Program-made: the position numbers and the translations under genes
Assembly: GCF_004664715.2 (NCBI RefSeq)
Contig: NC_051086.1
Span: 74,365,486 to 74,429,485, forward strand
Source of the DNA: Peromyscus leucopus
Lineage: Eukaryota > Chordata > Mammalia > Rodentia > Cricetidae
Direction of reading: 5' to 3'
Length of the DNA: 64,000 bases
Notes under the pieces: generated by a model
Told to the model about the DNA's origin: nothing
The model's input: only the letters and a program-made list of their open reading frames with translations
The model's database searches: none
Shown here: piece after piece, positions 5,208 to 58,798 of the stretch
How positions within the stretch are numbered: position 1 is the stretch's first letter
Layout of the letters: each line of letters starts with the position of its first letter

Positions 5208-5512
5208 TGTAGTGGGTAGCTGTTCCAGCTTTGACCTGGAAGTACTACCCCCATTGAGGCTTCGGTAACTGTCACGTCTAGAAGGCGGAGCTGAGAAAGG
5301 AGCCCCGAAGACCCGAGATACTGGATGCTGGCTCCTTTTAGTTCCTGGATCCTGGACGCTGGAGGTAGACTGAGCAGAGTTCTCCAGAGAACACCACTGG
5401 ACTGCGCTTCACCTTTCCCAGACCCTGTAACCTATGCCTCCACTTGTAAGTTACCCCACAAAATAAACCTCCCTTTTAACTACGTGGAATTGTTTTAATA
5501 TTTCTACCAATA
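5208..5512 (+). mobile_element. Solo ERV LTR, older copy of the 21203 family
   Basis: It starts TGTAGTGGGTAGCTGTTCCA and ends near TTCTACCAATA. It aligns along its full length with the LTR at 21203-21521: the CCCCCATTGAGG block, ACTGTCACG, the TCCAGAGAACACCACTGGAC block, AATAAA near the 3' side and TTTTAACTACGTGGA. It is clearly more diverged than the 21203 copy. No convincing target duplication is visible. It gives an independent reference for the family's LTR boundaries. Confidence 0.75.
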
Positions 5513-15010: not shown

Positions 15011-15305
15011 TTCTATTATTAATGTTTTTCTTTTATTTTACATACTGATCTCAGTTTCCCCTCTGTCCTCTCCTCCCATACCTTCCTCCCACCTCCCATC
15101 TACACCTCCCCATCCACTCCTTTTTCATCTTCATTCACAAAGAGGCAGGCCCCCCATGGGAGTTAACAAAATATGGCACATCAAGTTGAGGCAGGACCAA
15201 GCTCCTTCTCCTGTATCAAGCTGGGTGAGGCAACCCAGCATGGGGAAAAGGTTCCTAAAAGCCAGGTCAAGTTCTAGGAGCCCCACAAAGAGAGCAAGCT
15301 ACCTG

Positions 15306-21017: not shown

Positions 21018-21202
21018 TGTGCCAGTTAGCTTCTGCCAAGTTGATACCCAGGAAGGTGGAACTTTCAATTGAGGAACTGCCCCATCAGATTTTTTTATTA
21101 ATTAAATTTATTCATTTATTTTACGTCCCCACTGGTTTTGCCTCCCTCCTCTCCTTTCACTTCCTCTCCCCATCTCCCCCCACCAACCCTGCAATCTATT
21201 CC

Positions 21203-21521
21203 TGTAGTGGGTAGCCATTCCAGCTTGGATCTGGAAGTTCCAACCCCCATTGAGACTCTGGCAACTGTCACGCCTACGAGGCGGGGCGAGGGGAGGCGCC
21301 GGGGCACCCGAGAGCTGGATGGGCCAGCGCTCGCTCTGGGCGCTCTCGGTGCCGGGACGCTGACCAGTGCAGATTGACTGTGTAGAGCTCCGGAGAACAC
21401 CGCTGGACTGCATTACACCTTCCCCAGACCCTGCGACCTACCCATTACTTAATTTGTGAGTTACGCCATTAAATAAATATCCTTTTAACTACGTGGAGTG
21501 GCCAAAATAATTTCTCCAATA
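21203..21521 (+). repeat. Full-length LTR of the object
   Basis: It starts TGTAGTGGGTAGCCATTCCA. The GC-rich U3/R part holds an imperfect hairpin: CCGGGGCACCCGAGAG at 21299-21314 against CTCTCGGTGCCGG at 21343-21355. AATAAA lies in ATTAAATAAATATCC near 21470. The 3' end near CTCCAATA is set by the primer-binding site two bases on and by the older copy at 5208-5512. Confidence 0.85.
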
Positions 21522-21523
21522 TC

Positions 21524-21587
21524 TGGCGCCCAACGTGGGGCACGAACCCACGACCCTGAGATTAAGAGTCTCATGCTCTACCGACTG
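21524..21587 (-). other. Reverse-transcribed tRNA-Lys(CUU), nt 76 to 13, including primer-binding site
   Basis: The first 18 nt, TGGCGCCCAACGTGGGGC (21524-21541), are the tRNA-Lys1,2 primer-binding site and include the complement of the non-encoded CCA end. Complementarity then continues to 21587 through the T arm, variable loop, anticodon (AAG on this strand, CUU in the tRNA) and into the D arm. From my memory of mammalian tRNA-Lys(CUU), the only mismatch is A at 21542, opposite A58. CCA shows the template was a processed tRNA, not a tRNA gene. Confidence 0.92.
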
Positions 21588-21593
21588 GGGAGA
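21588..21593 (+). other. Purine stub before U3 (polypurine-tract remnant)
   Basis: GGGAGA joins the tRNA copy to the second U3 start TGTAGTGGG. With the shared G at 21587 it reads GGGGAGA, as expected for the end of a retroviral polypurine tract. There is no match to tRNA nt 12-1. The role is inferred. Confidence 0.55.
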
Positions 21594-21844
21594 TGTAGTG
21601 GGTAGCCATTCCAGCTTGGATCTGGAAGTTCCAACCCCCATTGAGACTCTGGCAACTGTCACGCCTACGAGGCAGGGCGAGGGGAGGCGCCGGGGCACCG
21701 AGAGCGCCCAGAGCGAGCGCTGGCCCATCCAGCTCTCGGGTGCCCCGGCGCCTCCCCTCGCCCCGCCTCGTAGGCGTGACAGTTGCCAGAGTCTCAATGG
21801 GGGTTGGAACTTCCAGATCCAAGCTGGAATGGCTACCCACTACA
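21594..21844. repeat. 106-bp inverted repeat of U3 with 39-bp loop
   Basis: 21594-21699 and 21739-21844 are reverse complements with one mismatch (A at 21674). The loop 21700-21738 is the inverted sequence of LTR positions 21309-21347. The strand switch falls on GGCACC, found forward at 21303-21308 and inverted at 21348-21353 in the intact LTR. Confidence 0.95.
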
Positions 21845-22429
21845 ATTCCTCCCCTGTTTCTCTTCAGGAAAGGACAGGCCTCCCATGAGTATCAACAAAG
21901 CATAGCATATTAAGTTGAGGTAGAACTAAACTCCTCCCCTTGTATTAAGACTGGGCAAGGCAACCCAGTATGAGGAATAGGTTCCCCCAAACCAGCCAAA
22001 GTGTTAGGGATAGCCTCTGCTTACACTGTTAAGAGTCTTGCAACTAGATAACTGTCACACATATGTAGAGGGCCTAGGTTGGTCCCATGCAGGCTCCCTG
22101 GCTGTTGATCTACACTTTGTGAGATTTTTCTATATGCAAGCATGTGGGGCACTTTCTTGATTTATGGTTGATATGTAAGGTCTAGGAAGAGATGCTCCTC
22201 TGACAGTGATCTTGGGTTCTATTAGAAAGCAGGCTGAGTAAGCCATGAGAGTGAGTGACTAAGCAGAACCCCTTCATGGCCTCTGATTTAGAGCCTGCCT
22301 CTAGGTTCCTGCCTTGACTTCCATCAGTGATGGACTGTGACATCGAAGTGTAAGATACATGTCGTTTGTATGTACCTCACATTGCTTTTGGCCAGTGTTT
22401 TATCACAGAAACAGAAAACAAACTCACCT

Positions 22430-57860: not shown

Positions 57861-58798
57861 TAACCTAGACCCAGAAAGACAAATATGGTATATACTCTCT
57901 CATAAGCGGATATTAGCTGTAAAATAAAAGATAAGTAATGCTACAATCCACAGACCTAGAGAGACTAGGTAACAAGGAGGGTTCATGGTGGGATGCCTAG
58001 ATCTCCCTGGAAAGGGGAAATAGAGATTTCATGAGTGGACTGATGGTGGGGTGGGAGTGCAGAAGGAAAAAGTACTGAAAGAGACTACTGGAATTGGGGG
58101 GCATTTCAGGGTCAGGTAAAAACCTGGTGCAAAGGAATCTCCCAGGAACCTACAAGAATGACACCAGCTGAGACTCTTAGCAATAGTTGATACACAGCCT
58201 GAATTGGACATTTCCTATAATCAAATTGGTGCCTAGTCTGATTGTCATTGGAGAGGCATCATCCAGCAATTGATGGAAACAGATGCAGACCCACATACAA
58301 ACATTAGGTAGAGTTATGGAAATGCTGCAGAAGAGGGGGAGAAAGGATTGTAGGGGCCAGAGGGGTCAAGGACACCACAAGAAAACTCACAGAATCAACT
58401 AACCTGGGTTCATAGGGGCTCACAGAGACTGAACTGGCAACCAGGGAGCCTGCATGGGACTGATCTAGGCACTCTGCATGTATGTGACAGTTGTGTAGCT
58501 TGGTACTCTTGTGAGACTCTTAACAGCAGGAACAGGGACTGTCTCCAACTCTTTTACTGGCTTTTGAGACCCTATTCCGAATACTGGTCACTTTAGGCTT
58601 ACTGCAACTTGATATGCCATGTTTTGTTGATACTCATGGGAGACCTGCCCTTTCCAAAAGAGAAATGGAGGAGAAGTAGACTGTGGGGTGGGAACAAAGA
58701 GGGGTTTGGTGGAGGGACTGGAAGGAGAGGAGGGAGGGGAAACTTCAGCTGGGGTGTGAAATAAATAAGTAAACAAATAAATAAATAATTTTTTTTTT
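56540..58798 (+). mobile_element. Lx-type L1, ORF2 C-terminal half and 3' UTR
   Basis: A 5'-truncated L1, about 2.26 kb. ORF2 remnants run to about 57860, followed by a 3' UTR with GACTACTGGAATTGGGGGGC, CTTGATATGCCATGTTTTGT and TGGAGGGACTGGAAGGAGAG, ending in a (AAAT)n tail. Its 3' UTR in reverse matches 15011-15670 and 21095-22121. It is the best reference L1 in the window. Confidence 0.9.

Follow-up and report, generated by a model that had tools for sequence, protein, structure and literature searches.

At positions 21203-21844 of the window, i.e. the whole stretch of 64,000 nucleotides of Peromyscus leucopus DNA that was analyzed, sequence reading and repeat comparison identified a 642-base insertion whose outer ends are both U3 termini and which is flanked on either side by ATTCC (Table 1; other loci and contigs are given as L and C numbers, respectively). 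The anatomy of the original prediction, namely an LTR, a tRNA-Lys copy, GGGAGA, 106 nt of U3, an inverted U3 and ATTCC flanks, was confirmed on re-reading. The end of the LTR was placed by the 3' LTRs of related loci, which stop at 21521 with target-site duplications (TSDs) next to them. Together, the 18-nt primer binding site (PBS) and the 46 further bases behind it make up a 64-nt copy of tRNA-Lys. This length agrees with the earlier claim of 64 nt complementary to tRNA-Lys(CUU), but the match is not full, as a single mismatch, at 21542, falls exactly at the m1A58 position; we read the A found there as a misincorporation at the m1A58 stop site. The tRNA-Lys(CUU) sequence served as the reference for the alignment. 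The tRNA-Lys(ctt) genes at L094 and L097 have A58, do not encode CCA and represent an isodecoder with a GGGAC anticodon stem.

Table 1. Features of the insertion and of its flank paralogues in the window.
Feature	Position	Strand	Basis or remark
Left TSD, ATTCC	21198..21202	+	sequence; same in L009
Full LTR (U3-R-U5), TGTAGT...CCAATA, 319 nt	21203..21521	+	sequence and related loci
Two bases, TC, between LTR and PBS	21522-21523	+	sequence
18-nt PBS, complements tRNA-Lys(CUU) 3' end including CCA	21524..21541	+	sequence against tRNA-Lys(CUU)
A at the base opposite tRNA A58 (a faithful copy has T)	21542	+	tRNA alignment
Remaining tRNA-Lys copy, as far as tRNA nt 13	21543..21587	+	tRNA alignment
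GGGAGA, polypurine tract (PPT) tail	21588..21593	+	sequence; PPT of L029
U3 nt 1-106 repeated, one mismatch	21594..21699	+	repeat comparison
Inverted copy of U3 nt 1-151	21694..21844	-	100% identical to 5' LTR; second U3 terminus
Right TSD, ATTCC	21845..21849	+	sequence
Flank paralogue, continuous over insertion site	58438..58788	-	67% identity over 382 columns
Second flank paralogue, continuous over insertion site	15011-15278		within window

The end of the tRNA copy and the PPT tail share one nucleotide, G, and the latter was named on the basis of L029, where a PPT ending in GGGGGAGA precedes the TGTAGT of an LTR. The direct U3 copy (106 nt, 99% identity) and the inverted one overlap by 6 nt, 21694-21699, at a natural inverted repeat in U3. 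The resulting inverted arms (158 nt, 98% identity) form a strong palindrome, with an RNA minimum free energy of -260 kcal/mol for the hairpin of U3 and its inverted copy. Rfam placed a tRNA on the minus strand of the insertion at 26.6 bits, under the gathering score of 29, and ARAGORN found no tRNA in the whole 64-kb window, as expected with a partial copy. Rfam matches to miRNAs over the palindrome, also under their gathering scores, reflect the hairpin and were set aside. A solo LTR, i.e. one LTR left between duplications by LTR-LTR recombination, is ruled out by the presence of the tRNA copy, the PPT tail and the inverted U3. An older, diverged LTR with 72% identity to that of the insertion lies at 5208-5512 (+) of the window.

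By employing the 642-nt insertion as query in a whole-genome search, with the best 40 of 3853 candidates scored, we obtained 37 other loci that all consist of an LTR with a tRNA-Lys copy, a selected set inasmuch as the query itself contains the tRNA copy. A read-through pattern, composed of the LTR end, the PBS, two free bases and eight tRNA bases, with up to 2 mismatches, was found at 298 places in the genome, while the reversed pattern, used as a control, was found at 0 places genome-wide. An LTR leading through an altered PBS into the ordinary leader occurred at 267 places, a few of them within inverted elements such as L020, and through a canonical PBS into the same leader at 89. By these three patterns, read-through accounts for 298 out of 654 LTR-PBS junctions, an approximate share, as the pattern lengths differ and other leaders exist. 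Among the matches listed for the canonical PBS followed by G or C ten bases on, 100 exact places were judged by eye to be tRNA-like in 90 cases and not in 10. As the AAACTCCAAA leader cannot match this G/C-ended (S) pattern exactly, an A/T-ended (W) run was added, the 95 exact places of which comprised 27 tRNA-like ones, 45 with exactly one of two ordinary leaders, 22 with something else and one more read-through with a two-base gap at nt 58-57. Such a junction, at C6:117211011, lacks the bases facing tRNA nt 58 and 57 and is possibly a case of bypass by skipping. The recurrence suggests that one and the same mishap has scarred this genome hundreds of times.

The tRNA copies were compared in a sample of 58 loci, namely the window, L010-L046 and L052-L071, the last consisting of the first 20 exact entries in the 298-place list that had not already been taken. 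Not counted as loci were L009, whose apparent C opposite A58 is a slip due to a missing G, and L029's second LTR. Of the 58 loci, 47 have A opposite A58, 5 have C, 6 have T and none has G, whereas the other tRNA positions were mismatched in 39 out of 3750 cases. These 39 comprised 19 at the isodecoder positions 36 and 48, 17 C>T or G>A changes and 3 other changes. Paired anticodon-stem changes in L023 and L035 (36A>G and 48T>C) correspond to a second isodecoder, in the form of the L094 and L097 genes. Among 100 of the 298 places listed, two rows of which come from one locus, the base was A in 85, C in 8, T in 7 and G in none. N1 methylation of A58 is given as the cause of the normal plus-strand stop at the PBS in the available text of PMC13191261, and, according to that of PMC4787781, reverse transcriptases that get past m1A introduce incorrect bases. 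Bypass of m1A58 should produce an error concentrated at A58, and most likely the reverse transcriptase bypassed a methylated A58, copied the primer and then changed templates.

That the primer tRNA was instead unmethylated at A58 is unlikely. Loss of the methyltransferase does let the HIV-1 plus strand pass A58 (PMC13191261, as far as its text is available) and the faithful T occurs in 6 of the 58 copies, but the base is wrong in the other 52, and both tRNA-Lys(ctt) genes seen carry A58. Five faithful-looking copies (L092, L093, L095, L096 and L098), situated outside the 298-place list shown, have the base of the gene at A58 and are followed by an encoded CCA. Together with the six copies with T, they weigh against pure misincorporation, so some bypass may have been correct or some of the tRNA unmethylated; methylation of A58 in this host is what the base spectrum would imply.

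Behind the tRNA copy, the 20-mers were all different in the 58 loci, and the copies themselves ranged from 35 to 76 nt with 21 different lengths, tRNA nt 1 being reached in 23 of the 58. The copy is continued by ERV 3' internal sequence at many places, by antisense LTR, by tRNA-Glu or by other sequence, and the overlaps at the joints are short, about 0-4 nt as judged by eye. A passage from tRNA-Lys nt 1 to the 3' CCA end of tRNA-Glu was found at 4 places genome-wide with up to 3 mismatches allowed (control 0); the direct joint was examined in two of the four, L023 and L038. In L036 the same joint has a small gap, and in L026 tRNA-Glu is entered internally. The copy in L016 runs into an integrase gene (rve 2.7e-18, IN_DBD_C 3.8e-9), which shows an integrase of the retroviral type; the source ERV is putatively of class II, betaretrovirus-like. 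In L030 and L037 the tRNA copy is followed by just 13-14 bases of inverted U3 terminus, and in L045 by CCAATA alone, each with an exact 6-bp duplication. The 3' end of L046 equals the upstream end before the PBS of another ERV group. L033 and L046 are chimeras that continue, behind the 5' LTR and tRNA copy, with the 3' part of an apparent second ERV group. In L044 the tRNA copy enters a long short-repeat array, with AGCTAG common to the array and the tRNA end, while L029 contains three successive LTRs that are separated by the same internal piece, with the same tRNA copy behind the first two, probably through unequal exchange. Capture of host mRNA was considered for L011 (poly-T), L042, L015 and others, where the sequence behind the tRNA copy may instead be flanking genome joined one-sidedly. 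At gathering thresholds, Rfam identified no RNA families besides tRNAs in the 37 loci.

Such a set could in principle be a small non-autonomous LTR family, similar to TRIMs, in which the tRNA copy is heritable and spreads by retrotransposition. The LTR end with tRNA common to 298 places, the near identity of the youngest LTRs and the LTR-internal-PPT-LTR layout of many loci would all fit. This reading is nevertheless very unlikely, given that the post-tRNA sequences differ in 58 out of 58 loci and the copies have 21 lengths, that the base opposite A58 varies between A, C and T, and that two tRNA-Lys isodecoders and several LTR groups are involved. Furthermore, a genome-wide search that tolerated up to 2 mismatches found the tRNA-PPT-U3 joint of the window once, and no second locus with the whole 642-nt structure was found among the best 40 of 3853 candidates. 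Within the same 40, the one other full-length match, on contig C987 (L009), has flanks that match those of the window at 99.2% over 6 kb, and is therefore the same locus, probably on an alternative haplotype contig. Since the joint was found once and the other whole copy is from the same locus, the window insertion itself looks like a one-off. The first join, from the LTR into the tRNA copy, recurs at other loci, and its 298 matches with differing continuations in 58 out of 58 point to a recurrent mechanism rather than to one mobile family; the independence of the joints was looked at in 58 of the 298 junctions. Out of the two outcomes left open by the original prediction, a one-off accident or a small propagating family, the former consequently holds for this insertion and neither for the class.

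The window insertion was also claimed to be a single event on the grounds of a paralogue that is continuous across the site, and two such paralogues are indeed present in the window (Table 1). By the earlier label they would be L1, and each is a continuous relative in the same window rather than an orthologous empty site. With the short duplication and a U3 terminus at each end, they support the view that a malformed, gene-less cDNA was integrated whole. An assembly artefact, or an origin from an ordinary provirus that was later rearranged step by step, is extremely unlikely. The insertion is a strong palindrome, a type prone to misassembly, but the same structure is present in the separate contigs C24 and C987 (98.75% over 642 bases), the flanks are continuous in the paralogues, and exact duplications are found at many other loci.

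Integration signs were found in the majority of the 38 loci made up of the window and L010-L046, with an LTR-type 3' terminus and a 5-6 bp duplication of the left flank in 27. A U5 end is combined with a 6-bp duplication in 12 loci (L012, L013, L017, L018, L019, L025, L026, L032, L036, L038, L041 and L045) and with a 5-bp one in four (L016, L024, L029 and L035), whereas L046 has a foreign end with a 5-6 bp duplication. An inverted U3 end is found in nine (L010, L020, L023, L027, L030, L031, L037, L039 and L040), the window, with 5 bp, being the tenth. L025, L027 and L032 lie in simple repeats and carry little weight; the end of L027 is situated in a G run, and that of L023 is altered by one changed base (ACTAAA). 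For L016, a chance-looking duplication at +1058 was rejected in favor of a 3' LTR further on with a 5-6 bp duplication. A 3' LTR is present in L028 with the duplication absent, and 10 of the 38 loci (L011, L014, L015, L021, L022, L033, L034, L042, L043 and L044) are without a resolved LTR-type 3' end and duplication in the stretch examined, although L022 and L043 have candidate duplications just behind, or close to, the end of the tRNA copy. L028 and these ten may represent one-ended or repaired events.

LTR-type termini with a 5-6 bp duplication are as integrase makes them. The range of 4-6 bp expected beforehand includes the 5 bp of the window, but not as the typical size, the related insertions having mostly 6 bp and a minority 5 bp. 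The ten loci with an inverted U3 end, including the window, indicate that two U3 ends can integrate together with a short duplication. Paired LTRs within one locus differ by 0-1.9% and are therefore young and were probably made in one round. Copying of ERV RNA by LINE-1, i.e. the processed pseudogene route, has next to no chance of being correct, the flanks matching repeat paralogues labelled L1 by the original prediction but the copies beginning at the U3 terminus rather than at the RNA 5' end, including the tRNA complement and having 5-6 bp duplications directly at LTR-type ends.

Read-through extends beyond one LTR group, to other tRNA-Lys-primed groups as well. Among the 20 additional loci, the LTRs of L061, L062 and L065 are nearest to the canonical-PBS subfamily (96-98.8%), L052, L054 and L069 form a separate LTR group that has no long match with the main group, and the LTRs of several others are diverged or unmatched. 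In a tRNA-half search, with 100 of 121 matches listed, 13 places were taken whose base at A58 is not that of the gene and which are absent from the 298-place list shown. All 13 start at the PBS, four behind one other upstream end and six behind a second, both of which would be LTR ends judging by their position, while L108 lies behind an 85% LTR and L103 and L107 behind neither recurring end. In young ordinary elements (L072-L081, L020 and L031) the PBS is altered and one base shorter than the tRNA-Lys1,2 complement (TGGCGCTCACGTGGGGC); a tRNA-derived PBS seems rarely to be fixed, although each round should copy it. Weak pairing at a mismatched PBS was considered as the sole cause of read-through, as suggested by the inverted copies with an altered PBS in L020 and L031 and by the 267 matches, but is ruled out in that role by L061, L062 and L065, which are near the canonical-PBS subfamily, and by the other upstream ends that are read through too.

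The tRNA-Phe counterpart is absent in this genome, with 0 places for its read-through pattern genome-wide, despite 182 exact matches to the 18-nt tRNA-Phe PBS, counted irrespective of LTR position and some of them in tandem arrays. These short arrays, often with 38- or 25-base spacing (C1:99004937-99005106, C8:74344911-74345042, C11:16058717-16058926 and others), give the impression that the PBS region of that ERV underwent repeated duplication. Read-through of tRNA-Lys3 was found at 2 places with 1-2 mismatches, a count without a denominator. Together, these numbers suggest that read-through in this genome is associated with tRNA-Lys1,2 priming.

According to the textbooks, the PBS end of retroviral DNA is set by the stop at m1A58, a step studied mostly in HIV-1. 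Very probably, to judge from the sequence, the window insertion is the integrated dead-end product of ERV reverse transcription in which this stop was bypassed, the primer tRNA copied and the template switched. Plus-strand synthesis would start at the PPT and proceed through U3-R-U5 into the primer tRNA-Lys, 18 nt of which give rise to the PBS. Without a stop at the N1-methyladenosine of tRNA position 58, which would be bypassed by insertion of an incorrect base (A in most cases), the tRNA would be copied for most or all of its length. The 3' end would then have no match in the minus-strand PBS, the normal second strand transfer would fail, and the failed end would jump to another template with little or no homology. 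For the window we envisage a jump to the PPT/U3 end, copying of 106 nt of U3, a fold-back at the 6-nt overlap in the U3 inverted repeat, and copying of U3 outwards to its terminus; at other loci the new template would be ERV 3' internal sequence, antisense LTR or tRNA-Glu. Where a molecule happened to acquire a second LTR end, it would be integrated with a 5-6 bp duplication. The order of these steps, the failure of strand transfer and the use of integrase we infer.

We lean, although only slightly, towards the broader view that m1A58 bypass is a standing and quantitatively major exit of ERV reverse transcription here (298 of 654 junctions by the three patterns), which feeds the genome with LTR-bounded chimeras (with antisense LTR, tRNA-Glu and other ERV families) and is a main source of non-autonomous ERVs. 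If this is true, a tRNA modification and the errors typical of an ancient reverse transcriptase are both recorded in the DNA of this genome. Within a single genome, the m1A58 stop appears to have failed naturally hundreds of times, and the outcome of each failure is preserved, giving an in vivo error spectrum for the bypass, mostly A, some C and no G seen. Read-through DNA would not simply be lost, rescue by template switching and integration being indicated, and a concrete route to non-autonomous ERVs is suggested.

In the open literature, with subscription papers mostly outside the scope, we recognized no report of genomic insertions that combine primer read-through with the m1A58 signature, but several known systems share parts of it. 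Host RNAs are packaged and recombined (available text of PMC4997597), and an analysis of PBS mutations argues, in the part available, that known tRNA modifications do not explain mutations inside the PBS (PMC7472051). Precedents are a tRNA-Gly adjoining an HIV provirus (PMC12220202, in part) and the work of Colicelli and Goff from 1986, as cited in the same source. In the published unintegrated clone with tRNA-Gly, as here, reverse-transcribed tRNA is joined to LTR sequence, which was explained by a linked, copied primer; our cases differ in that copies of the tRNA-Lys primer are integrated in the genome, at as many as 298 places, and that those examined show duplications and the A58 signature. 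Hairpin-induced tRNA-mediated recombination in HIV-1 (Konstantinova 2006, as summarized in PMC12220202) likewise patches pieces of tRNA, i.e. tRNA-Asp or tRNA-Glu, into viral sequence, but does so at an inserted hairpin in replicating virus and without primer read-through. The Helenus TRIMs (PMC10886601, in part) are short LTR elements with tRNA-like sequence, which is inherited and located inside the LTR, whereas here an antisense primer copy lies behind the LTR and starts from the PBS. The mysTR-related non-autonomous ERVs of the deer mouse comprise subfamilies that, in the available text of PMC10089650, mainly have the region from pro-pol to the 3' LTR in common, and the word 'tRNA' has 0 occurrences in the main text of that paper; jumps from a tRNA copy into the 3' part would produce a shared region of this kind, which suggests a possible link. 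A further likeness is the HIV-1 read-through with undermodified tRNA-Lys3, seen in methyltransferase-mutant cells (PMC13191261, in part), where the plus strand passes A58 and proceeds up to the tRNA 5' end, as here. Those products are described as unusable for strand transfer, whereas template switching seems to have rescued the ones in this genome, which were then integrated, in most cases with the wrong base at A58.
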